From Hoeflea sp. (GTDB taxonomy: Bacteria > Pseudomonadota > Alphaproteobacteria > Rhizobiales > Rhizobiaceae), in the NCBI RefSeq assembly GCF_002733955.1, contig NZ_NVXQ01000003.1, forward strand, positions 186,001 to 250,000: a stretch of 64,000 bases of DNA, read 5' to 3'. Below are positions 46,500 through 61,862 of the stretch, one piece after another. The position numbers and the translations under genes were made by a program. The notes beneath the pieces are model-generated. The model saw only the letters and a list, made by a program, of their open reading frames with translations. It did not search any database and was not told the DNA's origin. Position 1 is the first letter of the stretch. Each line of letters begins with the position of its first letter.

Positions 46500-47273
46500 C
46501 TAAAGCCCCTTGGGATGAGCCATGAACTCCTCGATGATGTCGAGGGGTGGCTTGACGTAATCGGAAGTGCGGCTGATGCCGAGCCCGATCAGTTCACGCA
46601 GTCGCACCGCCATCTCGGCCATCTTGACGACAATGGGAATACCGTTGATCACCGGCGCGCCATCGACACGATGATCCTGAAGCTGAGAAAACAACAACAT
46701 CGGAATGCCGCCGCCGGGGATCAGGACATCGACGCCCTGCTCCACCAGCGGCCTCGCCTGGGTTTCAAACAGCGCCCGGACCTCTTCCAACCGCTCATCC
46801 GAGCCGAAGGCGGAAAGGATCTGGCCGGGTTCGAAATCCATCGCGTGGACGCCGGTGACGCGCTCCTTCAATCCGTATTTGCCGATCTGATGATGAAACC
46901 AGGGAATGAACCGGCGGTTGATGGTGACAATGCCCGAGCGCTGACCGAGCTGGCAGGAATGCAGCATCGACGCCTCGCCCATGCCGAGCACCGGAATGTC
47001 GACAACGGAGCGCGCCTCATAAAGGCCTGCATCCTGGAAGTGCCCGATGATGAAGGCGTCATAGCCCTCGCGTTCGGCCTTCACCGCATTGCAGATCACC
47101 TCGCGGGCGCAGCGAAACTCGACAATCGCGTGGGCATAATTGTCGTGCGGCGTGATCCCCTTGATGTCGACCTGTGTGCCGGGATCGACAATCTTGTCGA
47201 GATGCTTGCGCAATTCGTCCCAGTATTCGGCGCCGTGCTCGTAATCGACATAGCTCTGGTACCAGATCTTCAT
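46500..47273 (-). CDS. Asp/Glu/hydantoin racemase-fold protein lacking both catalytic Cys
   Basis: A 257-residue member of the Asp/Glu/hydantoin racemase superfamily (DAGLYEARSVVDIPVLGMGEASM is the family core). The first catalytic Cys position holds His78 (IIGHFQDAGL instead of the usual CF-DPGL), and the second holds Gly188 (IPGGGIPM instead of a GCxGM motif). It is thus unlikely to be a two-base racemase and may be a decarboxylase, isomerase or hydrolase on the same scaffold. Last gene of the opine/TRAP operon, four bases after the TRAP large permease. Confidence 0.85.
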   Translation of the reverse strand: MKIWYQSYVDYEHGAEYWDELRKHLDKIVDPGTQVDIKGITPHDNYAHAIVEFRCAREVICNAVKAEREGYDAFIIGHFQDAGLYEARSVVDIPVLGMGEASMLHSCQLGQRSGIVTINRRFIPWFHHQIGKYGLKERVTGVHAMDFEPGQILSAFGSDERLEEVRALFETQARPLVEQGVDVLIPGGGIPMLLFSQLQDHRVDGAPVINGIPIVVKMAEMAVRLRELIGLGISRTSDYVKPPLDIIEEFMAHPKGL

Positions 47274-47277
47274 GGTT

Positions 47278-48597
47278 CTAACTCCTCATCAGGCCAGGCA
47301 GCCAAAGCGCCAGCTCCGGGAAGACCGCAAGGATGAGCACCAGCAGCAGCGTGCAGGCGATAAAGGGAGCGGCAGCCCAGGCCACCTGGCCGATTGTCGT
47401 GCCGGGCGGACTGACGCCGACCATGACGAACAGCAACAGCCCGAAAGGCGGCGTGGCAAGGCTCAGCTCCAGCGCCAGCAACATGATGACACCGAACCAG
47501 ATCGGATCGAAGCCATAGCTCGACGCGAGCGGCATGAAGATCGGCAGCGTCAGCATCATGATCGAGAGCTGGTCCATGAACATGCCGAGGATGAGCAGCA
47601 CCAGAAACATCAGCGCCAGAATGGCATAGAAACCGAAATCGAAGCTCATCGCGTAGGAGATCAGTCCGCTCGAAGCGCCGGAAAAAGCCAGTATCTGGGA
47701 GAAGGTGGTCGAGCCGACAATGATCATCAGCATCATCGCCGACACCATCAGCGTGCCCTTCATCGCCGCGATAACCGCTGTCCAGGTCAGCTTCCGGTAG
47801 ATTGCCGCCAGAATGGCCACAGCCAGAGTGCCGAAGGCTGCCGATTCCGTCGGTGTCGCCCAGCCGAGAAGGATGAGACCCACCACGGCGAAGATGACCA
47901 GGCCCATTGGCAGAATATCTCTCGCAATGGCGGAGATGATCTCGCCGAAGGTCGCGCGGTCAGCGGCATAACCGGGTGCCGCATCAGGATCGAGTGCGAT
48001 CTGCAGCCGGATGGTGGCGACAAACATCAGCGCCAGCACCAGGCCGGGAACAAGACCGGCGATCAGCAGGGCGCCGACATCGATCCGCGCCAGTGACCCC
48101 AGAAGCACCGCCAGCGAGGAAGGCGGGATGATCATCGCCAGACCACCGGTCGCAAGAATGGGCCCCATGATCATCTTCGGCTTGTAGCCGCGTTTGATCA
48201 TGTCGGGCATCAGCGTGGTGCCGAGCATTGCCGTATTGGCCATCGACGAGCCCGACAGGGTGGCAAAGATGGTGCCGCCGCCGACCGTCAGGTACGACAG
48301 CCGCCCCCTGATGCCCCCGAAACACTTGTCGAGCGCATCGAACACCCGCACCGCGAGGCCGGTGTGAAACAGCAGCTCCCCCATGATCAGGAACAGTGGC
48401 ACCGGCACCAGCGCGAAGCTGGTGACAGAGGTCGTGGCGTTGGCGACTAACTGGTCGATGCCGATCATGCCGCCCATGAACAGATAGACGCCGACGACAT
48501 TGATGGTGAGAAAGGCAATTGCCACCGGCGTTCCGAAGAACATCAGGAACAGCAGACCGCCAACCATCAGGCCGGCTGCTTCATACCACGGCATCAT
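47278..48597 (-). CDS. TRAP transporter large permease (DctM type)
   Basis: A 439-residue membrane protein with about 12 helices and repeated family segments (GGGTIFATLSGSSMANTAMLGT, IPPSSLAVLLGSLARIDVGAL). It is the ion-coupled translocation subunit that imports an organic acid-type substrate in Na+ symport. Works with the small permease and binding protein encoded just upstream. Confidence 0.95.
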   Translation of the reverse strand: MMPWYEAAGLMVGGLLFLMFFGTPVAIAFLTINVVGVYLFMGGMIGIDQLVANATTSVTSFALVPVPLFLIMGELLFHTGLAVRVFDALDKCFGGIRGRLSYLTVGGGTIFATLSGSSMANTAMLGTTLMPDMIKRGYKPKMIMGPILATGGLAMIIPPSSLAVLLGSLARIDVGALLIAGLVPGLVLALMFVATIRLQIALDPDAAPGYAADRATFGEIISAIARDILPMGLVIFAVVGLILLGWATPTESAAFGTLAVAILAAIYRKLTWTAVIAAMKGTLMVSAMMLMIIVGSTTFSQILAFSGASSGLISYAMSFDFGFYAILALMFLVLLILGMFMDQLSIMMLTLPIFMPLASSYGFDPIWFGVIMLLALELSLATPPFGLLLFVMVGVSPPGTTIGQVAWAAAPFIACTLLLVLILAVFPELALWLPGLMRS

Positions 48598-48628
48598 GGG
48601 CGTCTCGTTTCAAGGTGATGGGGCCGGG

Positions 48629-49123
48629 TCAATGGCTTGCCTCGTTGCCGGTGTAGATCTCGCCGCGCAGCAGCATGCGCAGGAATTCAAGCGTCATCAG
48701 CCCGAAACCACCGGCAAGCATGGCGTAGAGAACCCAGGATGGAATGTTGATCGAGCGCATGTCGACGGATCGGGCCGCCAGCATTTCCAGCCCGACCGCG
48801 CCCGAGCGCCAGGCCAGAAGTCCCAGTATGATGATGCATAGGATCAGCACCGCGCGTCCGGCAAGGAGCCGCAGGGTGTTGGGCAGGCGCTGGATGAAGG
48901 ATGTGATCGCCACGTGCCCGTTCTTGCGCACCAGCCAGGGGGCGGCCGCCATGGTGGAATAGAGCATGACATACTCGACCAGCGCACTGGTCGACTGCGA
49001 TGGGCGAAAGCCTGTGTTGCGCAGGACCACGTCAATGATGATGGCGATGGTGATGGCAACAAGACTGATGCCGCCGGTGACCGCCAGACCGGTAATTATC
49101 CTGTCGTAAACACGCACAAGCAT
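48629..49123 (-). CDS. TRAP transporter small permease (DctQ type)
   Basis: About 164 residues with four helices, DctQ family. ATG 49123 is chosen for GGGAG five bases upstream; two further in-frame ATGs lie upstream. Lies between the binding-protein and large-permease genes as usual. Confidence 0.9.
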   Translation of the reverse strand: MLVRVYDRIITGLAVTGGISLVAITIAIIIDVVLRNTGFRPSQSTSALVEYVMLYSTMAAAPWLVRKNGHVAITSFIQRLPNTLRLLAGRAVLILCIIILGLLAWRSGAVGLEMLAARSVDMRSINIPSWVLYAMLAGGFGLMTLEFLRMLLRGEIYTGNEASH

Positions 49124-49183
49124 GAAAGCTCCCATGGCAAAATTGGCAGCGGGCGCCGCTGTGACGCCCGCCATCAAACTTGT

Positions 49184-50194
49184 TTAGCGGTTGTAGTAGG
49201 CCTTGCGAAGCGCATCGTAATGCGGCGACCCGGCGTCCTTCATCCGCTTCCAGGCACTTTCAAAGGCGCCATCAAGAAACTTCTCCGCAGCATCGCCTTC
49301 CAGCGAGATCACGGTCATGCCCTCGTCCCGGACAGCCTTGTCGGTTTCCGAGATCACAGCCTGGAAGTTATCATAGGAGGTCTGCTCGAATTCCGCCGAT
49401 GCTTCGTTGATGATGGTCTTGGCCTCATCGCTCAGCGCATCCCACTTTGCAGGATTGATCACCACCGCTAGGTCGGTCTGGAAGAAACCGGGATCGATCC
49501 TGTAGCGCAGGAACTTGTCCCAGGAGAGATCCTTGATCGCCACGATCGGCCAGCCTGACCCATCGAAGGTGTGGCGTTCAAGACCGGTGTAGACGTCAGG
49601 CACCGGAACCGAGACCGGAATGGCGCCAAGCGATTCAAAGAAGGAGTTGTAGATCGGCTGCGACCGGATGCGCAGACCATCGAGATCGACGCCGCCATCC
49701 GCGGTGCGCTTGGGCTCGTCGATGGTGTAGATATGGAACTGGATTCCGGTGTCGAGATGAGCCAGCAGATTGACGCCGAGCTTTTCCGAGAACGCAGTCT
49801 GCATGACCTCGAAGCCGCCATTGGCGCGTGCATCGACGGCGGAGACGGTAGAGCCGACCCAGGCGTCGGCTTCCGGCATGGTGCCGAGATAATAGGACGC
49901 CGGGCCATACTGCATGTCGACGACACCGCGTCGAACTGCATCGACCTGCTGGTTGGGCGGGAAGATCTCCGGACCGCCGATATAGTCGATCCTGATGACG
50001 CCCTTGCCCTTCTCGTTGACGAGATCAACAAAGCCCTGAAAGCTCTGCGAGAACGCCAGCGGCTTTGGGAAGGCGGAAACCGCCCGCAGTGTTTCCTCTG
50101 CATTGGCCGCACCGGCCATGAAAACAAGCGCCAGTGCGGTACCGGAAACGGCCATTCCGGCGAAGCGCCGGCCAAGATGATGTGTGTGTTTCAT
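49184..50194 (-). CDS. TRAP transporter solute-binding protein (DctP type)
   Basis: A 336-residue periplasmic protein with a signal peptide cleaved near AANA-EE. DctP-family segments include YIGGPEIFPPNQQVDAVRRG, the YTIDEPK and LDGLRIRSQPIYNSFFESLG (carboxylate-binding Arg). Substrates of this family generally carry a carboxylate bound by that Arg; an opine or N-substituted amino acid would fit the neighbouring dehydrogenase (inference). Confidence 0.93.
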   Translation of the reverse strand: MKHTHHLGRRFAGMAVSGTALALVFMAGAANAEETLRAVSAFPKPLAFSQSFQGFVDLVNEKGKGVIRIDYIGGPEIFPPNQQVDAVRRGVVDMQYGPASYYLGTMPEADAWVGSTVSAVDARANGGFEVMQTAFSEKLGVNLLAHLDTGIQFHIYTIDEPKRTADGGVDLDGLRIRSQPIYNSFFESLGAIPVSVPVPDVYTGLERHTFDGSGWPIVAIKDLSWDKFLRYRIDPGFFQTDLAVVINPAKWDALSDEAKTIINEASAEFEQTSYDNFQAVISETDKAVRDEGMTVISLEGDAAEKFLDGAFESAWKRMKDAGSPHYDALRKAYYNR

Positions 50195-50246
50195 TGTTTC
50201 GTTCTCCTCTGGTTACACGGATTTTGACCATCCGTTTAAGATGCCG

Positions 50247-51239
50247 TCATTGTTCGTCGAGTACCGGACCCCTTGTCATTCCGGCGGTTTCGAGCGCTCT
50301 GAGAAAATCCGCCATGCGGCGCTGGCGGTATGCCTCGACATCCATTTTCGAATAGTCGAAGAATCCTGATCCGGTTTTCAGGCCGATACGGCCCTGGTCC
50401 ATGTTTTGCGAGATGACATCAGGCGCCTTGAAGCGGTCATCATCAAAGGCGTCGCGCAGATAATTGCTGGCGTAGTAGAGAATGTCGCCGCCGCCCCAGT
50501 CAATGAACTCGAGCAGACCCAGGACGCCGAAGCGAAGCCCGAAGCCGTAGGTTACCGCCTTGTCGACATCCTCGGCACTGGCAACCCCTTCTTCAACCAG
50601 ACGCGCCGCCTCGTTCATGGCCAGGGCCTGGATCCGCGGGACGATGTAGCCGGGCGATGCCTTGCAGACGATAGGAACCTTGCCCATCGCTTCCAGCACC
50701 TCGCGCAGCCGCGCAAGCGTTTGCGCATCGGTGGCATCGGTGGGGCTGAGTTCAATCAGCGGCATCAGGAAAGCCGGGTTGAGCCAGTGGGCATTAAGAA
50801 AATTTTCCGGACGCTGCGTGAATCCGGCAAGTTCGGTCGACAGGATGGTGGATGTCGTTGAGGCGAGGATCGCGCCGGGATCGGCGTGGGTGTCAAACAG
50901 CGCGAAAGCCTCGCGCTTGGCATCCAGCACTTCTGGCACCGCTTCGAACACGATTTCGCAGCCATCAAGGCCCCGAGCGGCATCCGCCAGGCTGCAGACC
51001 GTGATCCTTTGCATGATCGCCGGAATGGCAGCGGCGTCGAACGCTCCGAGCGCGGCCACCGAAGCAAGACCGCTCTCGATTTCCGCGAGAGCCTCGCCGC
51101 TTAATTGTGCGAAATCCTCTTCGCTGCGGCTCTTTGCGTCGACAAGCACGGCCCGGTGACCGGCATAGGCGACACTGTGGGCGATGCCACGCCCCATCCG
51201 TCCTGCACCAATGCAGGCGATCGCGGGCCGGGTGCTCAT
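50247..51239 (-). CDS. 3-hydroxyacyl-CoA/3-hydroxy-acid dehydrogenase family protein
   Basis: 330 residues: Rossmann domain with CIGAGRMGRGIAHSVAYAG at the N terminus, catalytic His-Asn region NAHWLNPAFLMPLIELSP, then a single C-terminal 3HCDH domain (GYIVPRIQALAMNEAARLVEEG). This size and layout also fits L-carnitine or L-gulonate 3-dehydrogenases, so the substrate may be a free hydroxy acid and not a CoA ester. Its start abuts the stop of the opine dehydrogenase gene. Confidence 0.87.
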   Translation of the reverse strand: MSTRPAIACIGAGRMGRGIAHSVAYAGHRAVLVDAKSRSEEDFAQLSGEALAEIESGLASVAALGAFDAAAIPAIMQRITVCSLADAARGLDGCEIVFEAVPEVLDAKREAFALFDTHADPGAILASTTSTILSTELAGFTQRPENFLNAHWLNPAFLMPLIELSPTDATDAQTLARLREVLEAMGKVPIVCKASPGYIVPRIQALAMNEAARLVEEGVASAEDVDKAVTYGFGLRFGVLGLLEFIDWGGGDILYYASNYLRDAFDDDRFKAPDVISQNMDQGRIGLKTGSGFFDYSKMDVEAYRQRRMADFLRALETAGMTRGPVLDEQ

Positions 51240-52315
51240 TACAATCCCTCGCGCAGCATGGTCTGCATCGTGGCCAGGTCCAGATCCGACAGGCCAACTG
51301 TCGTCATGGTCCGGCCATCCTTGCGGAAATCACATTCCGAAACCGCTTCGGCGACCGCCAGAAGCCCTTGCGCCACCGGACAGGGAACACCGGCCCACTC
51401 CCCGACAGACACGAGAAAGGCAAGACCTTGCCCGATGTCTTCCTGCATGTAGCGGTGTGTTTTCAGCTCAAGATGTTCATGCCAGTCCCCGGATCCGACG
51501 AGCTTGTCGTGCGCGAGATTGCCATACATCCAGTTGCTGGTCTCATAGTGATCTGCCAGTGGAAAATGCGGCGCGCCATAGCCAAGCGCCTCGCGGATCG
51601 CGATGCGCTCATTGTCGAGTGCAGTGTGGACCCGGCGGATCGCAGGCTGGGTGCCTTCGTTGTGAATGTCCCAGCGCTCGAAATGCTCGATCGGACCGGC
51701 ATTCATCAGGATCAGCGGCGGATGGATGATCGGACCGGCATTCATGAGCGCCCCCGACAACGCATCCTCGATCGGCTCGATCGCATCCGGAAAGGCCTGC
51801 GATATGATGGCGATGGCTTCGTCCGTTTTGCGCGCAGGCAGCACACCGGTCGGCAGCCGCGAGGCGCGGGTCGAGATCCGCACTTCGGTCTGGCTCTGCT
51901 TGCGGGTGAGCCAGGGCAGCGTACCGGTTTCGGCAATCGCGAAATCAGCGGTGCAGCCGGCATCCCGCATCCGCTTCATCATGATGTAGGAGCCAAACGT
52001 GCCCGGCGGCAGGTAGATCACCTGTCCGTCAGCCATATGCGGCGCCAGCCTGTCGGCAATGTCGGCTTGGGCATTGGCCGGTGTCGGCGCGACGATCAAC
52101 TCGGCGCCGGACATCGCGGCCGCCAGATCATCCGTCGGCACCAGCTTGACCGGCCGGCTGCCCTTGTAATCGGTGACGGTGATGCCACCAGCCTTGGTTA
52201 CCTCGGCAAAATCGCTCGCGTTGCGCCGCCACCAGCGGACATCATGACCAGCCTCTGCAAAATCCGCCGCTGCCGCGTAGGATCCGTTACCACCGCCGAT
52301 TACAACAATCTTCAT
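51239..52315 (-). CDS. Octopine/nopaline (opine) dehydrogenase family enzyme
   Basis: About 358 residues. N-terminal Rossmann domain (KIVVIGGGNGSYAAAADFAEAGHDV) and C-terminal opine-dehydrogenase domain (IIHPPLILMNAGPIEH, DIHNEGTQPAIRRVHTALDNERI). The family interconverts opines (secondary-amine dicarboxylates) with an amino acid plus a 2-oxo acid using NAD(P). With a TRAP importer downstream a catabolic direction is likely. ATG 52315 with AGGA upstream is preferred over ATG 52324. First gene of the six-gene operon. Confidence 0.88.
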   Translation of the reverse strand: MKIVVIGGGNGSYAAAADFAEAGHDVRWWRRNASDFAEVTKAGGITVTDYKGSRPVKLVPTDDLAAAMSGAELIVAPTPANAQADIADRLAPHMADGQVIYLPPGTFGSYIMMKRMRDAGCTADFAIAETGTLPWLTRKQSQTEVRISTRASRLPTGVLPARKTDEAIAIISQAFPDAIEPIEDALSGALMNAGPIIHPPLILMNAGPIEHFERWDIHNEGTQPAIRRVHTALDNERIAIREALGYGAPHFPLADHYETSNWMYGNLAHDKLVGSGDWHEHLELKTHRYMQEDIGQGLAFLVSVGEWAGVPCPVAQGLLAVAEAVSECDFRKDGRTMTTVGLSDLDLATMQTMLREGL

Positions 52316-53287
52316 TCTACTCATCCTGGAAATTGGGTTGATAACTTGTCGGGCAAACCGGCTGCCGCCTGGAATTCTATCGCCGCGTCACGGTACACCA
52401 GACGCCCTCCCGACAGGGGCCATCGCCGGAAAACACCAGTCAGGCACCGTACGGCAGACCGCCCAAGCCCGGTCGTGAGGGCTGGAGAACTATCGATACG
52501 GGTGCTGTTGCGAACCAGTCGCGGAAGGCGCTCGGGGCTGGCCGCACAGACGTTTTCGGCTTTGGTCTTCACACCTTCGACGGAGCCGCGCTGCACAGGT
52601 ACAGCGCCGGGCTGACGCACGGTTTTGCCGAGCCTGGCCACGGAAGGTTTCGGAAGCCGGGGAATTTTCACGCTCATGGCTGCACCCCGGCGCGGTCTCG
52701 TGCAGTCGGGTCTGGACCGAACCTCGGCAGAACGCTCGCAGTCCGAACTTCAGCACCACGGCGGGCGGCTCTGCACGGCCAGTTGCATGCATACGCAAAT
52801 ATATTGGCTGTCGCATTCATCCGTCACGTCCACCCCGATAGCCGCGTCACAAACGAAAGCTCACACAGCTTTGAATTCACTTCAAGCTTAAAATATGAAA
52901 ACGCACTCTTTTAAAACCGTGGCTTACCGGTCAGCACATGAAATTTCATATTCTTTCAAGCACATGGCCACCGCACGCCTGGCCTCGTTTTTTCGGACCT
53001 GTTGAATGCCCAACCCGACAGCGACGGGCGGATCAACCAAGCCGCGGACACAGACCCCGAGGCCACAACTTCGACAGTCGCGGAGAAGCAGCTTACCGCG
53101 TCAAACCGCGCGGCCACCTGTTCCAATGTCAATGCATTTTGCCATGCCATCCTGGCGCGAAGGCACAACCGGATTGGCGCAATTATCCCGCTGCAGCAAA
53201 CCAACCGACGCCTGCTTGATGATTGACATGAATATTGATTCATGTTTCATGTTTTTACCGTCATTCGCTCAGGGGAGGAGACCCGAA
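52316..53287. other. About 970 bases without a recognisable gene
   Basis: Divergent region between the opine operon and the ABC operon. Translation of all frames gives only short, low-complexity Arg/Pro-rich peptides without family resemblance. From about 52790 the DNA becomes AT-rich and contains the perfect palindrome ATGAAATTTCAT (52938-52949), TTTTAAAA-type tracts and, at 53226-53249, the TetR-type operator. It may hold a decayed gene, long leader or small RNA, but I cannot support one. Confidence 0.5.
53226..53249. promoter_or_regulatory. TetR-type operator before the ABC operon
   Basis: Contains ATGAAT-ATTG-ATTCAT followed by GTTTCA; 22 of 24 bases match the element at 62453-62476 in front of the TetR gene. 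It overlaps a TTGACA -35-like hexamer (53223-53228), so bound repressor would block RNA polymerase. Confidence 0.75.
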
Positions 53288-54466
53288 ATGAAGATGAAAA
53301 CGATACTGGCAACCAGTGCAGCAGCTTTGATGCTGGCATCACCGGTGCTTGCCGATGAAATCCGCGTCGCCCATGTCTATGGCAAGACCGGAGCGCTTGA
53401 GGCCTATGCAGCGCAGTCGCACAACGGCCTGATGCTCGGCCTCGAATACGCCACCGGAGGCACCATGGAGATCAATGGCGACAAGATTGTCGTCATCGAG
53501 AAGGACACCCAGATCAAGCCCGACATCGGCAAGGCCGTGCTGGCGGAAGCCTATGGCGATGACGAGGCCGACATCGCGGTCGGGCCGGTCAGCTCGGGCG
53601 TTGCGCTGGCCATGCTGCCGGTTGCCCAGGAATACGAAAAGATCCTGATCGTCGAGCCTGCGGTGGCCGACTCGATCACCGGCGAAAACTGGAACCGCTA
53701 CATCTTCCGCACCGGTCGCAACTCGTCGCAGGACGCGATTTCCAACGCTGTGGCCCTGGGTGGCGAAGGCGTGACGATCGCAACGCTGGCACAGGACTAC
53801 GCATTCGGACGCGACGGCGTGGCAGCCTTCCGCGAGGCGCTGGCAAGCTCCGGCGCCACGATCGCACATGAGGAATATGTGCCCACCGACACCACCGACT
53901 TCACCGCGGCGGCCGAACGCATCTTCAACGCCATGGAAGGCGTCGACGGCAAGAAGAAACTGTTCATCATCTGGGCCGGCGGCGGCAACCCGATGGGCAA
54001 GATCAACGCCATGGATCCCTCGCGCTTCGGCATCGAGATCGCCACCGGCGGCAACATCCTGGCAGCCCTGAAGGCCTACAAGGAACTGCCGGGCATGGAA
54101 GGCGCGACCTATTACTACTACGAGATCCCGAAAAATCCGGTCAATGACTGGCTGGTCAAGGAGCATATGGACCGCTTCGGCTCGCCTCCGGATTTCTTCA
54201 CAGCCGGCGGCATGGCGGCAGGCATTGCCGTGGTCGAGGCCATCAAGAAGGCCGGGTCCACCGACACCGAAGCGCTGATCACCGCCATGGAAGGCATGGA
54301 ATGGGAGACGCCCAAGGGCACCATGCGCTTCCGCAAGGAAGACCACCAGGCGCTGCAGTCGATGTATCACTTCCGCACCGAGGTCCAGGACGGCAAGGAC
54401 TATGGCGTCCCGGTCCTGGTCCGCGAGATCGGCATTGACGACATGAACATCCCTGTCCGCAACTAG
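53288..54466 (+). CDS. ABC substrate-binding protein, branched-chain amino acid (HAAT) type
   Basis: A 392-residue periplasmic protein with signal peptide (cleavage near PVLA-DE). Peripla_BP_6 family features: VGPVSSGVALAMLPVAQEYEK and LAQDYAFGRDGVAAFREAL. GGGGAGGAG lies about eight bases before the ATG. Relatives bind amino acids but also aromatic acids and short acids; acyl-CoA ligase genes in the partner operon favour a carboxylic acid substrate (inference). Confidence 0.92.
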   Translation: MKMKTILATSAAALMLASPVLADEIRVAHVYGKTGALEAYAAQSHNGLMLGLEYATGGTMEINGDKIVVIEKDTQIKPDIGKAVLAEAYGDDEADIAVGPVSSGVALAMLPVAQEYEKILIVEPAVADSITGENWNRYIFRTGRNSSQDAISNAVALGGEGVTIATLAQDYAFGRDGVAAFREALASSGATIAHEEYVPTDTTDFTAAAERIFNAMEGVDGKKKLFIIWAGGGNPMGKINAMDPSRFGIEIATGGNILAALKAYKELPGMEGATYYYYEIPKNPVNDWLVKEHMDRFGSPPDFFTAGGMAAGIAVVEAIKKAGSTDTEALITAMEGMEWETPKGTMRFRKEDHQALQSMYHFRTEVQDGKDYGVPVLVREIGIDDMNIPVRN

Positions 54467-54474
54467 CTCTTCAA

Positions 54475-54505
54475 GCCGCGGACGCCCGCTTGTGGCGTCC
54501 GCGGC
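54475..54505 (+). terminator. Hairpin between binding protein and ATPase genes
   Basis: Perfect 12-base arms GCCGCGGACGCC and GGCGTCCGCGGC around a 7-base loop, nine bases after the binding-protein stop. No U-run is evident (ATTCTCTC). Likely causes partial termination or 3' protection so that the binding protein is made in excess. Confidence 0.65.
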
Positions 54506-54532
54506 ATTCTCTCTTCCTTCCATGGGTACGCC

Positions 54533-55297
54533 ATGACACAGATGCTTCTGGAAACGGATGGCCTGACCGTCCGCTTTGGCGGTCACGTGGCCGTGGACGC
54601 GGTCACCTGCGGCTTTCGCGCCGGTGAGCTGACCGCCATCGTCGGCCCCAATGGCGCAGGCAAGACCACCTATTTCAACCTGATTTCCGGCCAGGTAACG
54701 GCGTCTGCGGGCACCGTGCGGCTGATGGGTGAGGATGTGACCCGCGACCCCGTGGCCACACGCTGCCACAAGGGGCTGGGCCGGGCCTTCCAGCTCACCA
54801 ATCTGTTTCCCGATCTCACCGTGCTTGAAAATGTCCGGCTGGTCATCCAGGCCCGGCGCAAGATGGGCTTCAACCTGTTCTCCATGGCAGGCTCACACAC
54901 CGAACTCACGGTCGCGGCAATGGCGGTGCTTGAGCGGGTTCGTCTCCACGACCTGGCCGAACAGAAGGTCGGCGGTCTCAGCCACGGCAACCAGCGCAAG
55001 CTCGAGGTTGCCATCCTGATCGCGCTCGAACCCGCTGTTTACATGTTTGATGAACCGACCGCCGGCATGAGCGTCGACGAAGCCCCGGTGGTCCTCGACC
55101 TGATTGCCGAACTCAAGGCCGACACCGATCGGACGATCCTGCTGGTTGAACACAAGATGGATGTCATCCGGTCGCTCGCCGATCGCATCATTGTGCTGCA
55201 CAACGGCGCACTTGCCGCTGACGGCGACCCGGCCACGGTGATGGCCTCGGATGTGGTCCAGGAAGCCTATATGGGACGGGATCTTGCCGATGTCTGA
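54533..55297 (+). CDS. ABC ATPase, LivG type
   Basis: 254 residues: Walker A VGPNGAGKTTYFNLISG, signature-like GGLSHGNQRKLEVAI, Walker B VYMFDEPTAGMS and LVEHKMDVIRSLADRI. Pairs with the LivF-type ATPase encoded next, which it overlaps by eight bases. Confidence 0.93.
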   Translation: MTQMLLETDGLTVRFGGHVAVDAVTCGFRAGELTAIVGPNGAGKTTYFNLISGQVTASAGTVRLMGEDVTRDPVATRCHKGLGRAFQLTNLFPDLTVLENVRLVIQARRKMGFNLFSMAGSHTELTVAAMAVLERVRLHDLAEQKVGGLSHGNQRKLEVAILIALEPAVYMFDEPTAGMSVDEAPVVLDLIAELKADTDRTILLVEHKMDVIRSLADRIIVLHNGALAADGDPATVMASDVVQEAYMGRDLADV

Positions 55298-56012
55298 TCC
55301 GATCCTCGAACTGTCCGCTGTCCACACCGACATCGCCCAGTATCACATCCTGCAAGGCGTCGACCTGACCGTGCCACGCGGCGGCGTTACCATGCTTCTG
55401 GGCCGCAACGGCGTCGGCAAGACCACGACCCTGCGCACCATCATTGGCCACTGGCAGGCAAAATCCGGCAGCCTGCACTTCAATGGCGCCGACATCACCA
55501 CCATGCCCACCCCTGCCCGCGCCCGTGCCGGCATTGGCTTCGTGCCCGAGGACATGGGCATCTTCTCCGATCTGACAGTGGAGGAAAACATGATCCTCGC
55601 GGCCGCATCCGGTCCGCTTGACCCGGCCCGCATGCAGTGGATCTTCGAGGCATTCCCGCCGCTCAAGACATTCTGGCGCTCCGAGGCCGGCAACCTGTCC
55701 GGCGGACAGAAGCAGATGCTGTCCATCGCCCGCGCCATGGCCGAGGAACGGCAATTATACCTGATCGACGAACCGACCAAGGGACTGGCGCCGGCAATCA
55801 TCTCGACCATGGCCGGCGCACTTCGCGACCTGAAGGCAAAGGGCGCCTCGATCCTGCTGGTCGAACAGAATTTCGCCGTCGCGAGGGCGCTCGGCGACAC
55901 CGCAGCCGTGATGGACGACGGCCGCATCGTATGGGCCGGCGAGATGGCCGAGCTGGCTGGCGACGCAACCCTTCAGGAACGGCTGATGGGCCTGAGCATG
56001 GAGGCGCACTGA
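55290..56012 (+). CDS. ABC ATPase, LivF type
   Basis: 240 residues: Walker A LGRNGVGKTTTLRTIIG, signature LSGGQKQMLSIARAM, Walker B LYLIDEPTKGLAP and LVEQNFAVARALGD. Second ATPase subunit; its stop overlaps the permease start (ATGA-type overlap at 56012). Confidence 0.93.
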   Translation: MSDPILELSAVHTDIAQYHILQGVDLTVPRGGVTMLLGRNGVGKTTTLRTIIGHWQAKSGSLHFNGADITTMPTPARARAGIGFVPEDMGIFSDLTVEENMILAAASGPLDPARMQWIFEAFPPLKTFWRSEAGNLSGGQKQMLSIARAMAEERQLYLIDEPTKGLAPAIISTMAGALRDLKAKGASILLVEQNFAVARALGDTAAVMDDGRIVWAGEMAELAGDATLQERLMGLSMEAH

Positions 56013-57046
56013 TGACCACCGCCGCACCCGACCACGCCCCGAAATATGCGCAACTGTCGCTGGCCGACAGGCTCGGCAAGGCCATGCCCTTGCTGCTTGT
56101 GCCGCTGCTGGTGATTTTCGGCTTCCTGTCGATCGGCTCGACTTCGAGCTGGTTGACGCTGACGGTCTCCGGGCTTGCGATGGGAATGATGATCTTCATC
56201 ATGGCCTCCGGTCTGACCCTGGTGTTCGGGCTGATGGACGTGATCAATTTCGGCCATGGCGCCTTCATCTCCGTGGGCGCCTATGTCGGCATTTCCGCCC
56301 TGCTGGCGCTCGAGAGCTGGACCGGCGTGCCATCGCTGCTGCTCAACGTTTCTGCCGTCCTGGCGGCAGTGATCGCTGCCATGTGCGTTACCGGCGCGCT
56401 CGGCTGGGGCTTCGAGCGGGTAATCGTGCGACCGGTCTACGGCGCCCACCTCAAGCAGATCCTGGTCACCGTTGGCGGCCTCATCGTTATCGAGCAGCTG
56501 ATCCATGTGGTCTGGGGCCCTGACGAGATCTTCCTCACCCGGCCGGAAATGCTGAAGGGTGCCGTCACCTTTGCAGGCGCTGCGATCGAGAAATACCGCT
56601 TGCTCGCCGTGGTGTTCGGCCTGGTGCTGTTCGTGGCGATGCGGCTGGTGCTCAAGCGCACCAAGATCGGCCTGATTGTCCGCGCCGGGGTGCAGAACGG
56701 GGAGATGGTCGAGGCGCTGGGCTACCGGCTGCGGCTGGTCTTCATCGGCGTGTTTGTTGCCGGCTCCGCGCTGGCCGGGCTGGGCGGCGTCATGTGGGGT
56801 CTCTACCAGGAGGTCATTACCGCCGGCATGGGCGAGGAGATGATGATCCTGGTCTTCATCGTCGTCATCATCGGCGGCCTCGGATCGGTCGAGGGGGCCT
56901 TCATTGGCGCACTGCTGGTCGGGTTGTTGCAAAACTACGTGGCGTTCCTCGAACCCAAGCTGGCGCTGATTTCCAACATCGCTCTGATGACGGCGGTGCT
57001 GATGTGGCGACCGCAGGGCATGATGCCCGTTGTGAAGGCGAAATAA
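56012..57046 (+). CDS. ABC permease, LivH type
   Basis: 344 residues with about eight helices; family segments GLTLVFGLMDVINFGHGAF and IGGLGSVEGAFIGALLVGL are clear. The hydrophilic N terminus (first 25 residues) precedes the first helix. Forms the channel with the LivM-type permease. Confidence 0.92.
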   Translation: MTTAAPDHAPKYAQLSLADRLGKAMPLLLVPLLVIFGFLSIGSTSSWLTLTVSGLAMGMMIFIMASGLTLVFGLMDVINFGHGAFISVGAYVGISALLALESWTGVPSLLLNVSAVLAAVIAAMCVTGALGWGFERVIVRPVYGAHLKQILVTVGGLIVIEQLIHVVWGPDEIFLTRPEMLKGAVTFAGAAIEKYRLLAVVFGLVLFVAMRLVLKRTKIGLIVRAGVQNGEMVEALGYRLRLVFIGVFVAGSALAGLGGVMWGLYQEVITAGMGEEMMILVFIVVIIGGLGSVEGAFIGALLVGLLQNYVAFLEPKLALISNIALMTAVLMWRPQGMMPVVKAK

Positions 57047-57047
57047 G

Positions 57048-58100
57048 ATGCTCACAAATCTCCTCTCCGGCGATCACCCCCGCTCCCTGATCCTGACACT
57101 CCTGCTGCTTGCCATTCTCGCCGCACTGGCGCTGGCACCGTTCCTGTTCCCCGGCGTCCGCTCGCTCGAAACCGCGGCGCGGATCTGCATCTTCATCGTG
57201 CTGGTGGCGAGCTACGATCTTCTGCTCGGCTATTCCGGCATTGTCAGCTTCGCCCACACCATGTTTTTCGGCCTTGGCGCCTATGGTGTTGCGCTGGCTT
57301 CAACCCATATGGGCCGCGGCTTCGACGCGCTGATCGTCGGCACTCTTGCCGGCGCCGTCGCCGCAGCGATACTGGCGCTGCTGATCGGATTGTTCTCATT
57401 GAGAGTCCGGGCGATCTTCTTCGCCATGATCACGCTCGCGGTCGCCTCCGCAGTGGCGGTGCTTGTGAGCCAGCTGTCCGGCCTGACCGGCGGCGAGGAT
57501 GGGCTCAACTATTCGATCCCGCGCGAACTCACGCCCGCCTTCAAGCTGGGCAAGCTGTTCGGCATTTCCGTCACCGGCAAGATCCTGAACTACTACCTGG
57601 TGTTTTTCGCCTCGCTGGCCCTGTTCCTGCTGCTGCTCAGGATCGTCAATTCGCCGTTCGGGCGGGTGCTCAAGGCGATCCGCGAAAACGATTTCCGGGC
57701 AGAGGCGATCGGCTACCGGGTGGTGCTCTACCGGACGCTTGCGACCTGCCTGTCGGCGGCCGTTGCAGCTCTCGCCGGCAGCCTGTTTGCCATCTGGCTG
57801 CGCTATGTCGGCCCGGCCACCACGCTGTCCTTTGAGATCATGCTCGATATTCTCTTGATGGTGGTGATCGGCGGCATGGGCACCATGTATGGCGCCGTGA
57901 TCGGCACCACGATCTTCGTGCTGGCGCAGAATTACCTGCAGAACCTGATGGGCGTCGCGGCAAGCGCAACCGAAGGCCTGCCGCTGATCCCGCAACTGCT
58001 TGACCCGGATCGCTGGCTGCTGTGGCTCGGCGTACTGTTCATCCTCAGTGTCTATTTCTTTCCCACCGGGATCGTCGGACGGCTAAGGGCGGAAGATTGA
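57048..58100 (+). CDS. ABC permease, LivM type
   Basis: 350 residues with about nine helices; family segments YSGIVSFAHTMFFGLGAYG, GLTGGEDGL and IGGMGTMYGAVIGT. Follows the LivH-type gene after one base; its stop overlaps the TTG start of the hydrolase gene. Confidence 0.92.
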   Translation: MLTNLLSGDHPRSLILTLLLLAILAALALAPFLFPGVRSLETAARICIFIVLVASYDLLLGYSGIVSFAHTMFFGLGAYGVALASTHMGRGFDALIVGTLAGAVAAAILALLIGLFSLRVRAIFFAMITLAVASAVAVLVSQLSGLTGGEDGLNYSIPRELTPAFKLGKLFGISVTGKILNYYLVFFASLALFLLLLRIVNSPFGRVLKAIRENDFRAEAIGYRVVLYRTLATCLSAAVAALAGSLFAIWLRYVGPATTLSFEIMLDILLMVVIGGMGTMYGAVIGTTIFVLAQNYLQNLMGVAASATEGLPLIPQLLDPDRWLLWLGVLFILSVYFFPTGIVGRLRAED

Positions 58101-59250: not shown

Positions 59251-59606
59251 CACGCCACCTCCGCTTCGCCAACAAGAAGCTCCGCGCCATCGGCAGACCT
59301 GACCGCGCGCACCAACAGTGTTCCCGGACATTCACCGCTGATCATCAGATCGACCGGTTCACCGGTGTAGCAGGGATTGGGAAACATCATCGTCTGGCCC
59401 TTTTGCGAGACTTCCGGATGCGCGGCGATCAGCAATCCCCAAAGCTTGGCGTAGATCAGCATGCCGTGGCTGACCGTGCGCCCGAAGGCCGTCCGGGCCG
59501 AGAATTCCGGATCGACATGGATCGGATTGTCATCGCCGGAAATCTGCGCGAACAGGTCGAACTCGTTCTGGGTCGGCGTCCATTCAGAAGACAGTTCAAT
59601 TTTCAT
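59250..59606 (-). CDS. MaoC-like (R)-specific enoyl-CoA hydratase subunit
   Basis: 118 residues with the intact hydratase-2 motif: Asp25 and His30 in ISGDDNPIHVDPEFS, then GRTVSHGML. It hydrates a 2-enoyl-CoA to an (R)-3-hydroxyacyl-CoA. Overlaps the ligase gene upstream and the degenerate MaoC gene downstream. Confidence 0.88.
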   Translation of the reverse strand: MKIELSSEWTPTQNEFDLFAQISGDDNPIHVDPEFSARTAFGRTVSHGMLIYAKLWGLLIAAHPEVSQKGQTMMFPNPCYTGEPVDLMISGECPGTLLVRAVRSADGAELLVGEAEVA

Positions 59607-61087
59607 GGCAGCAAAGACCTCAATTCCGGTTTGCGGACTTTTCCGGCTGCCGTGCGCGGGAAGTCCTCCACCAGCGTGACTTTCACCGGCACCTTGTAGG
59701 CGGCCATCCGCTCCCGGCACCAGCTCCTGAGCTTGGCCGGGTCAAGGCTGGCGCCGGGGCGGGCAATGATGAAGGCCGCCCCCACCTCGCCCCATTTGGC
59801 GTCGGGCATGCTGATCACCGCAGCTTCCAGCACATCCTCATGCTCGTTGAGCACGCGCTCGACTTCGGCCGGATAAACATTCTCGCCACCGGAAATGTAC
59901 ATGTCCTTGATCCGGTCGACGATGAAGATGTAGCCATCCTCGTCGCGCCGCCCGATATCGCCGGTCCGGAGCCAGCCGTCTTCGGTGAAGGCGTCGCGCG
60001 TCGCCCTTTCGTTCAGATAATATCCCGGCGTGATGTTGGGTCCCCTGAGCTGGATCTCGCCGGCGCCCGGTTCGCCGGCCGCAACGCCGTCAAGCCGCAT
60101 CTCGGTCAGCATCTGCGCCCGCCCGACCGAGCCGATCTTCCTCTCGGCGTTTTCCGGATCCATCAGGAACACTGTCGGCCCGGTTTCGGTCATGCCCATG
60201 CCATTAAGCACCTTGGCCCCGAGCCCCGCAAACAGCCGGATCAACGGCTCAGGCAACGGCGCGCCGCCACAGCCACAGCGGATCGCACCCCAGTTTATCT
60301 CGCCGACGTCGGGCAACAGGCTGAAGGCCTGGTAGATCGCCGGAACGCCGAAGAACTGCGTGACCTTGCCCTGCTTGAGCAGATCAAAGATCTGAGCCGG
60401 CTCGAACTTCGGCAAAACCGTCGAAGAACCGCCCAAGAGAAACAGCGGCAGCGTGTAGAGATTGATCCCGGCGGTGTGAAACAAGGGCAGGAAATTGACC
60501 GAGCGGTCATCGGCGGTCATCCGCGTCGCCTGGGAAATGTTGACCGCATTGGCCCAGGCCATCTGCGCCGTCTGGATTACGGCCTTCGGCTGGCCGGTGG
60601 TGCCGGATGTGAACAGCAGATACCACGGCTGGCCCGGCGCTACCTCTACTGCGGGAACCCCACCACCGGTCTCGATCCACCCGGCGATATCGGTTTCAAT
60701 GGCAAATTTCGGGATCCGGAAGGCCTGCGCCACATTCCCGGCAAGCCCGGCCTGCGCCACGTCATGGATGATCGCCTTGGCACCCACCGGCTCGAGCGTC
60801 TCGACCAGTTCCGGCGCCGGCTGTCGCCAGTTGAGCGGACACAGGATGATGCCGGTCTTCTGGCAGGCAAACAGCGTGATGAAAAACTCGACCCGGTTGA
60901 GACACAGGATCGCCAGCCGGTCGCCCTGCTGCAACCCGGCTTGCCCCAACCCGGCGGCGACCGCATTGGCCGCGGCGTTGATGTCCGAGAACAGCCACTC
61001 CCGGCCGCTGCCAGCGTCAATAAAGGCCGTGGCGTCAGGCGAGATTTCGGCCCGCTTTGCGGCCATGTCGGCAATTGCATCAAACAT
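59603..61087 (-). CDS. Acyl-CoA synthetase/ligase (AMP-binding)
   Basis: About 494 residues. Adenylate-forming motifs: P-loop LLFTSGTTGQPKAV, GMGMTETGPTVF, GWLRTGDIGRRDEDGYIF, RIKDMYISGGENVYPAEVE, and the C-terminal catalytic Lys in PRTAAGKVRKPEL. Activates a carboxylic acid to its CoA thioester. ATG 61087 begins the conserved region and overlaps the stop of the enoyl-CoA hydratase gene by eight bases. Confidence 0.92.
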   Translation of the reverse strand: MFDAIADMAAKRAEISPDATAFIDAGSGREWLFSDINAAANAVAAGLGQAGLQQGDRLAILCLNRVEFFITLFACQKTGIILCPLNWRQPAPELVETLEPVGAKAIIHDVAQAGLAGNVAQAFRIPKFAIETDIAGWIETGGGVPAVEVAPGQPWYLLFTSGTTGQPKAVIQTAQMAWANAVNISQATRMTADDRSVNFLPLFHTAGINLYTLPLFLLGGSSTVLPKFEPAQIFDLLKQGKVTQFFGVPAIYQAFSLLPDVGEINWGAIRCGCGGAPLPEPLIRLFAGLGAKVLNGMGMTETGPTVFLMDPENAERKIGSVGRAQMLTEMRLDGVAAGEPGAGEIQLRGPNITPGYYLNERATRDAFTEDGWLRTGDIGRRDEDGYIFIVDRIKDMYISGGENVYPAEVERVLNEHEDVLEAAVISMPDAKWGEVGAAFIIARPGASLDPAKLRSWCRERMAAYKVPVKVTLVEDFPRTAAGKVRKPELRSLLP

Positions 61088-61862
61088 CGGCTCTGCCCCC
61101 GATGCGCTCCAGAAAGCGGGACATGCCCCGTGTGGCGTCAGGCTGAGCGATCCGGTCCAGAAAGGCCTCGGACTCGGCCTTGAGCCGCGCATCGATCCGT
61201 TCGCGGCGAGCGGCATCCCAGAGCAGCGCCTTGGTCGTAAGCCGCGTGCCTATTTCACCACTTGCCGCAAGCTCAGCCGCCGTCTCCTCCGGATGATCGG
61301 AAACCCGCGTGGCCAACCCCAGATCGCAGAGCTCCCGCGCGGATAACCTCCGATCAGATTGCAACCACTCCAGCGCGCGTCCGGCGCCGATACGTTCGGG
61401 CAGCAGCGCGGTCCAGCCCCCGTCGGGGGCAAAGCCGACCTGCTGATAATAGGGCTGCACAAAGGCGTCCGGGGCCAGCACTGCAAGATCGGCGGCGAAC
61501 AGCAATCCGGCAGATCCACCGGTGATCGCGCCGCGCGCGGCGACCACCACAAGGCGCGGCATGGTGATCAGCCGGGCGACGATGGTCTGCAGACGCGGCA
61601 CCACCTCGCCGGCATAGGCAACCGCTTCCCCGGCCAGCGATGCCTTGTGAAAGCCGCGCACGTCTCCGCCGCTCGAGAAGTTCCGGCCACCGCACAGCAG
61701 GATGACTTTTGCGTCCGTCGCCTCGGCCTCGTCGAGGGCAGCAGCCAGATCCCGCAGCAAATCCGGCTCGAGAGAATTGGCCCGGCCGCCGGCCAGTGTC
61801 AGCCGCGCGCACAAGGTGCCGTCAGCGAGGTCAAGCGTTTCCGAAGTGATCCGGGCAGTCAT
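61080..61862 (-). CDS. Enoyl-CoA hydratase/isomerase family protein
   Basis: 260 residues, crotonase fold. CoA/oxyanion-hole segments are LCGGRNFSSGGDVRGFH and AARGAITGGSAGLLFAADLAVL; the region AFVQPYYQQVGFAPDGGWT resembles isomerase (PaaG-like) members rather than classical hydratases. Overlaps the TetR gene by four bases. Acts on the CoA ester formed by the neighbouring ligase. Confidence 0.9.
   Translation of the reverse strand: MTARITSETLDLADGTLCARLTLAGGRANSLEPDLLRDLAAALDEAEATDAKVILLCGGRNFSSGGDVRGFHKASLAGEAVAYAGEVVPRLQTIVARLITMPRLVVVAARGAITGGSAGLLFAADLAVLAPDAFVQPYYQQVGFAPDGGWTALLPERIGAGRALEWLQSDRRLSARELCDLGLATRVSDHPEETAAELAASGEIGTRLTTKALLWDAARRERIDARLKAESEAFLDRIAQPDATRGMSRFLERIGGRADV

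Follow-up and report, generated by a model that had tools for sequence, protein, structure and literature searches.

A TRAP transporter and dehydrogenase operon of Hoeflea sp. as a possible accessory arm of auxin catabolism

Bacterial breakdown of the auxin indole-3-acetic acid (IAA) affects plant growth. The accessible part of PMC9613470 distinguishes two routes for it, iac and iad, and the published loci compared here are, in the available portions of those papers, described for IAA itself. The closest known system to the present locus is the iad locus of Variovorax paradoxus CL14 with its MarR-type regulator IadR (PMC9613470, PMC10374108 and PMC12633357, all in partial text). This study concerns a six-gene operon in a stretch of 64,000 nucleotides of Hoeflea sp. 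(contig NZ_NVXQ01000003.1, positions 186,001 to 250,000), hereafter the window, encoding two oxidoreductases (ODH and HAD), a tripartite ATP-independent periplasmic (TRAP) importer (DctP, DctQ and DctM) and a protein of racemase fold (RAC). The original prediction had considered it an opine-type uptake and catabolic operon, a reading of the substrate that found no support: gene neighbourhood, co-occurrence among genomes and a shared palindrome point to the catabolism of auxin or aromatic acids. That the operon constitutes an accessory branch of aerobic IAA catabolism has, in our estimate, a probability of about two in three. Targeted literature searches, judged by listings and the beginnings of abstracts, gave no paper recognised as describing this gene set, and look-ups of the terms TRAP, opine and octopine in the available text of PMC11630574, and of octopine and hydroxybutyryl in that of PMC10374108, returned no occurrence.

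The operon extends on the minus strand from 52324 to 46500 as six co-directional, tightly packed open reading frames in the order ODH, HAD, DctP, DctQ, DctM and RAC (Table 1). Their assignment by Pfam bore out the families originally named for them, the complete TRAP set included. ODH and HAD overlap by one base (TAATG) and the following intergenic gaps measure 52, 6, 31 and 4 bases. Position 52315, where the original prediction placed this end of the operon, is the second in-frame ATG of ODH and agrees with the point at which most aligned orthologues begin. A DNA search of the organism's own genome returned four short matches elsewhere, all of them falling within the DctM portion of the query sequence.

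Table 1. Coordinates of the operon genes and of features upstream of them, as positions in the window
Feature	Position	Strand	Evidence or remark
ODH, octopine/nopaline dehydrogenase-family oxidoreductase, 361 aa	51239..52324	-	PF02317, E 3.6e-29
HAD, 3-hydroxyacyl-CoA dehydrogenase-family oxidoreductase, 330 aa	50247..51239	-	PF02737/PF00725; NF006125
DctP, TRAP solute-binding protein	49184..50194	-	PF03480
DctQ, TRAP small permease	48629..49177	-	PF04290
DctM, TRAP large permease	47278..48597	-	PF06808
RAC, Asp/Glu/hydantoin-racemase-fold protein	46500..47273	-	PF01177, E 7.5e-26
Putative IadR (MarR) operator ATGAAATTTCAT	52938..52949		only perfect ATGAANNTTCAT of the window; divergent region between ODH and LivK
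TTCAAGCTTAAA element	52881..52892	+	also upstream of ODH in L075 and L082
LIV-type ABC transporter: LivK (53288-54466), followed by ATPase and permease frames	53288..58100	+	divergent, outside the operon

Conservation of the gene set was assessed over 104 loci (numbered with the prefix L), comprising the best 80 of at least 590 ODH relatives found in a scan of named genomes, a choice that favours near kin, 20 loci from a sample of 297 genomes of the order, six plasmid loci and the window itself, minus three duplicates. HAD directly adjoins ODH on the same strand in 102 of them (no more than 287 bases separating the matched stretches), the contig stopping soon after ODH in the two others (L084 and L132), and the recurrence of this pairing is not a matter of chance. 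A DctP relative is found near ODH in 32 loci and RAC in 23, and all six genes occur in the order of the window in 15, the window included. Togetherness of the set in other genomes, which the original prediction had proposed as its own test, is thus observed in 14 other loci. In the order sample, ODH orthologues (at least 56% identity) occur in 21 of the 297 genomes, the organism's own included, followed after a clear gap by 7 more relatives at 28-31%. A phylum sample of 349 genomes contained ODH in 9, of which 8 belong to the window's order, and was left out of the co-occurrence analysis; a search of viral contigs gave 2 pattern matches and no relative. Three loci (L090, L091 and L134) are titled Bordetella parapertussis, Thermincola ferriacetica and Clostridiales metagenome-assembled genomes, odd hosts for these genes, and are possibly mislabelled or contaminated.

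Neighbouring genes were typed by tblastn with references taken from L034 for iad, L037 (Acinetobacter) for iac and L052 for iorA (indolepyruvate oxidoreductase). We take L034 and L037 to represent the two routes from their annotated names and from their gene order relative to published descriptions. At least three iad genes accompany ODH in 17 of the 104 loci, iorA in 7 more and at least two iac genes in 3, and 77 have none. The neighbours fitting the iad set encode a reductase, Rieske alpha and beta subunits, an AMP-ligase, a thiolase, a short-chain dehydrogenase/reductase (SDR) with a ChsH2 domain, a protein of the cyclase/kynurenine-formamidase type and another SDR, with roles in the set as given in the available text of PMC12633357. 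Two further neighbour genes encode subunits of indolepyruvate oxidoreductase, which the accessible part of PMC9613470 counts among the iad markers. The nearest ODH to that of the window (Martelella, L070) adjoins iac and the next nearest adjoins iad, and in the marked ODH clade to which the window belongs 12 of 18 rows are linked, five of the 12 being closely related Nitratireductor-type loci.

The iad genes are also present in the organism itself, contig C10 carrying all eight of iadC-J with a MarR gene and a second TRAP system, and contig C14 encoding IorA; iadCDE with iadF-J, the combination taken to define an iad locus, was not found within the window. Across the order sample ODH occurs in 7 of 8 genomes with IadD versus 14 of 289 without (Fisher p 2.4e-8). 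In a class sample of 337 genomes, where 5 matches at 62% identity or more were counted as IadD, the figures are 3 of 5 versus 9 of 332, and they become 5 of 12 versus 7 of 325 when all 12 matches at E <= 1e-100 are admitted, including 7 weaker ones at 38-47%. In the order sample RAC occurs in 8 of 8 genomes with IadD versus 4 of 289 without (p 3.6e-13) and, counted by genus, in 5 of 5 versus 4 of 118 (p 6e-7), the RAC of three of these eight IadD genomes being a 41-42% relative and no close orthologue.

The position of RAC in other genomes suggests the steps that it might accompany. It adjoins iadG in two genomes (G171 and G194), precedes iadG-H-I away from iadCDE in another (G112, locus L212) and adjoins iadF-G-H-I in one that has no IadD match (G295, locus L213); in Pukyongiella (L152) a RAC relative stands with TRAP genes, iadG-H-I and iorA, and iadCDE are absent from the stretch fetched. 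The last three cases, together with the report of C8H7NO3, the formula of isatinate, among iad metabolites in the available text of PMC12633357, would also suit a system in which TRAP and RAC handle an oxidised auxin or late iad intermediate coming from outside (dioxindole-3-acetate, dioxindole or isatinate, i.e. 2-aminobenzoylformate), ODH and HAD taking its hydroxy and oxo forms. We regard this as rather unlikely, since ODH and HAD also lie by iac and homoprotocatechuate genes, settings in which no role of isatinate is known, and dioxindole-3-acetate lacks a secondary hydroxyl that could be oxidised.

RAC has the fold of the Asp/Glu/hydantoin racemases (TM 0.73 to 3qvj). Both catalytic cysteines of these enzymes are missing from it, H78 and G188 standing in their places when it is aligned to 3qvj/3qvk, and the two residues are invariant in two alignments of 25 and 27 sequences. 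The racemase fold originally named is borne out; because the two cysteines are absent, "racemase" names here a fold, and an activity predicted at most. Arylmalonate decarboxylase was rejected as an identity for RAC, the cysteine being absent here too: the feature of that enzyme is Gly74/Cys188 (PMC4996985, available portion), and RAC, mapped through 3qvj, has H78 at the first site and G188 at the second. RAC thus represents a racemase-fold family whose annotation misfits its active site.

A regulatory connection is suggested by the palindrome ATGAANNTTCAT. It was first spotted by eye in two places, the gap between the organism's own MarR gene and iadC and the upstream region of ODH in L068, and was tested afterwards. 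The 4.86 Mb genome contains three perfect copies, located in the MarR-iadC gap, at position 52938 of the window and at an RND (resistance-nodulation-division) efflux operon, and no copy of the reversed pattern; the palindrome is thus common to the organism's iad promoter and the upstream region of the operon. Perfect sites occur in 4 of 103 ODH upstream regions (L068, L089, L108 and L112), versus means per 103 of 0.16 in random 300-base windows and 0.01 in shuffled sequences, and at MarR or iadC in L071, L089 and L159. Beside ODH the Nitratireductor locus L080 encodes a MarR whose nearest match is 3CDH (E 9.9e-44), followed by 7KKI/7KFO, and MarR_3CDH binds IAA with a KD of 0.237 uM (PMC9613470, accessible part). 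Judging from these sequences, IadR would bind the palindrome and the operon would be regulated by this IAA-sensing MarR. Two perfect copies stand in other settings. In L072 (17124-19205) an IadR-like perfect site (17893) lies between a frame resembling, by eye, Asp/Glu racemases or decarboxylases and a kynureninase-like frame, the latter in the same blast cluster as the kynureninase of L049. The copy at the RND genes (L197, 7951-7962; G000:C31:319951) forms part of a longer palindrome, GAATGAATATTCATTC; it lies upstream of what by eye resembles an efflux system of this type, and looks like the site of another regulator.

A number of observations weigh against the operon being an arm of auxin catabolism. 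As regards the palindrome, composition alone predicts 0.9 sites in the genome, so that their count is unremarkable, the striking point being their placement; the independent cases are few, L089, L108 and L112 being kin and L068 being one of the places where the motif was noticed; a perfect copy is missing from most iad loci; the third genomic copy lies by the RND operon; and the copy in the window, 614 bases away from the start of ODH and about 340 away from LivK, may be used solely by LivK and its ABC (ATP-binding cassette) transporter. As regards linkage, no fewer than 11 changes on the tree of ODH are needed for the iad label, none of 500 shuffles being as low (mean 15.9); the label is thus clustered, and the linkage in part inherited, but it recurs. 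Fourteen of the 21 ODH-positive genomes of the order have no IadD at the cut-off, and RAC (at least 45% identity) is present in the stretch fetched of just 8 of the 17 loci linked to iad. Short contigs do not explain the 77 loci without linked auxin genes, since 47 of the 76 remaining when the window is excluded are flanked on each side by 8 kb or more. Moreover, the nine-gene set iadC-K2 is reported, in the available text of PMC12633357, to suffice for the conversion of IAA to anthranilate, so that the pathway is not known to lack any step. The frequency of long unlinked loci and the absence of RAC near half of the linked iad clusters reduce our confidence accordingly.

The large share of unlinked loci makes it probable that the ODH-HAD pair also serves other aromatic acids. 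Its neighbours in L049 are homoprotocatechuate and kynureninase genes, and in the Pseudomonas locus L127 it is accompanied by a porin, a major facilitator superfamily transporter and an AraC regulator only; these associations, too, tell against a place in auxin catabolism. Homoprotocatechuate-type genes adjoin the pair in L049, L051 and L059 (HpaE and HpaG-like, tested in L049, with the same clusters in the others), kynureninase being present in L051 as well. In L054 and similar Bradyrhizobium-like loci the pair stands, again to the detriment of that reading, beside a bifunctional salicylyl-CoA 5-hydroxylase/oxidoreductase above the PRK08255 cut-off, a family which we take to act in 2-aminobenzoyl-CoA catabolism. 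In the two Prosthecomicrobium loci L081 and L042, ODH-HAD-TRAP-RAC immediately follow genes for an Ldh_2 dehydrogenase and for hydantoinase A and B (by Pfam in L081, by the same clusters in L042). The 77 unlinked loci, and the HpaE/HpaG-type genes and kynureninase that adjoin the f21 loci, are what would be expected if the operon belonged to a general pathway for aromatic 2-hydroxy acids that meets auxin catabolism in some lineages only, the linkage then reflecting the clustering of aromatic catabolism genes. We hold this to be a possible though not a likely account, the distribution of RAC and the shared palindrome tying this version of the operon to iad.

The proteins themselves narrow the chemistry to some extent. 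ODH has the PF02317 domain at its C-terminus and a Rossmann N-domain, as in opine dehydrogenases, and its nearest solved relative is N-(1-D-carboxyethyl)-L-norvaline dehydrogenase (CENDH, 1bg6; full-length match, E 3.4e-35, 28% identity), with which its AlphaFold model (mean pLDDT 89.5) aligns in Foldseek at TM 0.84. H201, R291 and D296, aligned to 1bg6, are invariant in 17 and 19 sequences; we take His201 and Asp296 to be the catalytic pair and Arg291 the substrate residue of opine dehydrogenases. These features, and the fact that the first five Foldseek matches are opine dehydrogenases, speak for opine-type catabolism, in which the TRAP system would import an N-substituted amino acid, ODH split it oxidatively into an amino acid and a 2-oxo acid, and HAD handle a hydroxy acid. 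The fold does not impose opine chemistry, however, as the model is matched by ketopantoate reductases and by D-mandelate dehydrogenase too; the gene context is aromatic; and five annotated plasmid neighbourhoods, the sixth record being without annotation, hold no opine-related names, save a MocE-type ferredoxin by L038. We consider such catabolism improbable. A mixed form, with an indolic opine-like compound, is possible, and because ODH keeps the opine dehydrogenase signature an N-substituted indolic substrate may be envisaged.

HAD passes the NF006125 model for 3-hydroxybutyryl-CoA dehydrogenase (477 bits for a cut-off of 427), and AMP-ligases are encoded near some loci, including the window (59603-61216), so that a beta-oxidation-like use of a coenzyme A (CoA) thioester could be considered. 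The histidine aligned to that of 6aa8 is kept in 102 of 102 rows. At 6aa8 positions 66, 70 and 73, in the helix whose lysines putatively contact CoA, lysine is found in 8 of the 102 rows at the first and is outside the six commonest letters at the two others. This lack of conservation, and the fact that no ligase of the other loci reaches 40% identity to that of the window, weigh against beta-oxidation, which we hold to be very improbable, and HAD is possibly an enzyme of free hydroxy acids. The nearest solved relative of DctP is 4mnc/4mni (E 1.5e-51), and its R177 and W225 are invariant in 26 sequences. The ligand of 4mni is presumably benzoylformate, which is the des-amino analogue of isatinate and would also speak for the oxidised-auxin system considered above; if this is right, it favours an aromatic 2-oxo acid over a C4-dicarboxylate.

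For an accessory arm of auxin catabolism, these elements suggest the following scheme. The TRAP importer would take up an aromatic, most likely indolic, carboxylate, which ODH and HAD, both NAD(P)-linked, would oxidise; the product would enter the iad pathway encoded elsewhere in the genome, and RAC would act alongside the steps of iadF-G-H-I. The import followed by oxidation that was originally proposed is thus supported, as far as their families indicate, by a complete TRAP set and two dehydrogenases, and the opine as substrate is not retained. As an aryl-lactate or arylpyruvate would suit IAA, homoprotocatechuate (L049: HpaE, kynureninase) and general aromatic routes alike, our best guess, a tentative one, is a compound of this kind such as indole-3-lactate. 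ODH and HAD might then take opposite enantiomers to indole-3-pyruvate, which indolepyruvate:ferredoxin oxidoreductase might convert to indoleacetyl-CoA. Tryptophol was set aside as a substrate, the ligands of TRAP transporters being carboxylates, as were amides of IAA with amino acids, no amidohydrolase being encoded in the unit. A more specific proposal, to which we accord somewhat less than an even chance, is an IAA-controlled side arm in which the TRAP system and the two dehydrogenases would import auxin precursors or oxidised auxins (indole-3-lactate, or acids of the dioxindole/isatinate type), and the cysteine-free RAC, of new chemistry, would go with iadF-G-H-I.

The region upstream of the operon has further particularities. 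Between ODH and the AT-rich operator region lies a GC-rich stretch of 546 bases (52325-52870; 62.6%), for which blastn gave no match in the loci of other genomes and only itself in its own; the operon promoter may have been displaced. The TTCAAGCTTAAA element is given little weight, since it occurs 28 times, with at most one mismatch, in the other loci (2.04 Mb). The divergent LIV-type transporter, whose LivK is very close to the solved binding proteins 3n0x/3nnd (E 6.6e-173), may share the operator with the operon. Finally, the AMP-dependent acyl-CoA ligase of the window lies 7 kb upstream on the same strand as the operon and does not reach the curated cut-off for any of the 25 NCBIfam families listed; it was dropped as a member of the system on the identity threshold given above.

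Should the operon belong to the auxin regulon, its carriers would also import other indolic acids, and the nine-gene pathway as described would omit a companion protein, relatives of which occur in all eight iadD genomes of the order sample. The operon also narrows down which ligands and enzymes might be assayed. With respect to described systems, it resembles the iad locus in that its own genome has iadC-J with a MarR gene, 17 of the 104 loci place the ODH-HAD pair beside iad, and the own iad promoter has the same palindrome; it differs in that ODH, HAD, the operon's TRAP system and RAC are outside the nine genes reported to suffice, to which the comparison was confined, the Variovorax locus having 25. 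ODH is similar to 1bg6 and to octopine dehydrogenase in fold, PF02317 domain and His/Arg/Asp signature, and departs from them in its low identity to 1bg6 and its aromatic catabolic context, while DctP has its best solved relative in the TRAP binding protein 4mnc/4mni. RAC shares its fold with allantoin/hydantoin racemase (3qvj/3qvk), OpaE and arylmalonate decarboxylase; it differs from the first by a histidine and a glycine at both catalytic cysteine positions, from OpaE, which keeps Cys90/Cys199 (PMC12661438, available portion), and from arylmalonate decarboxylase, which keeps Cys188 (PMC4996985, likewise in part).

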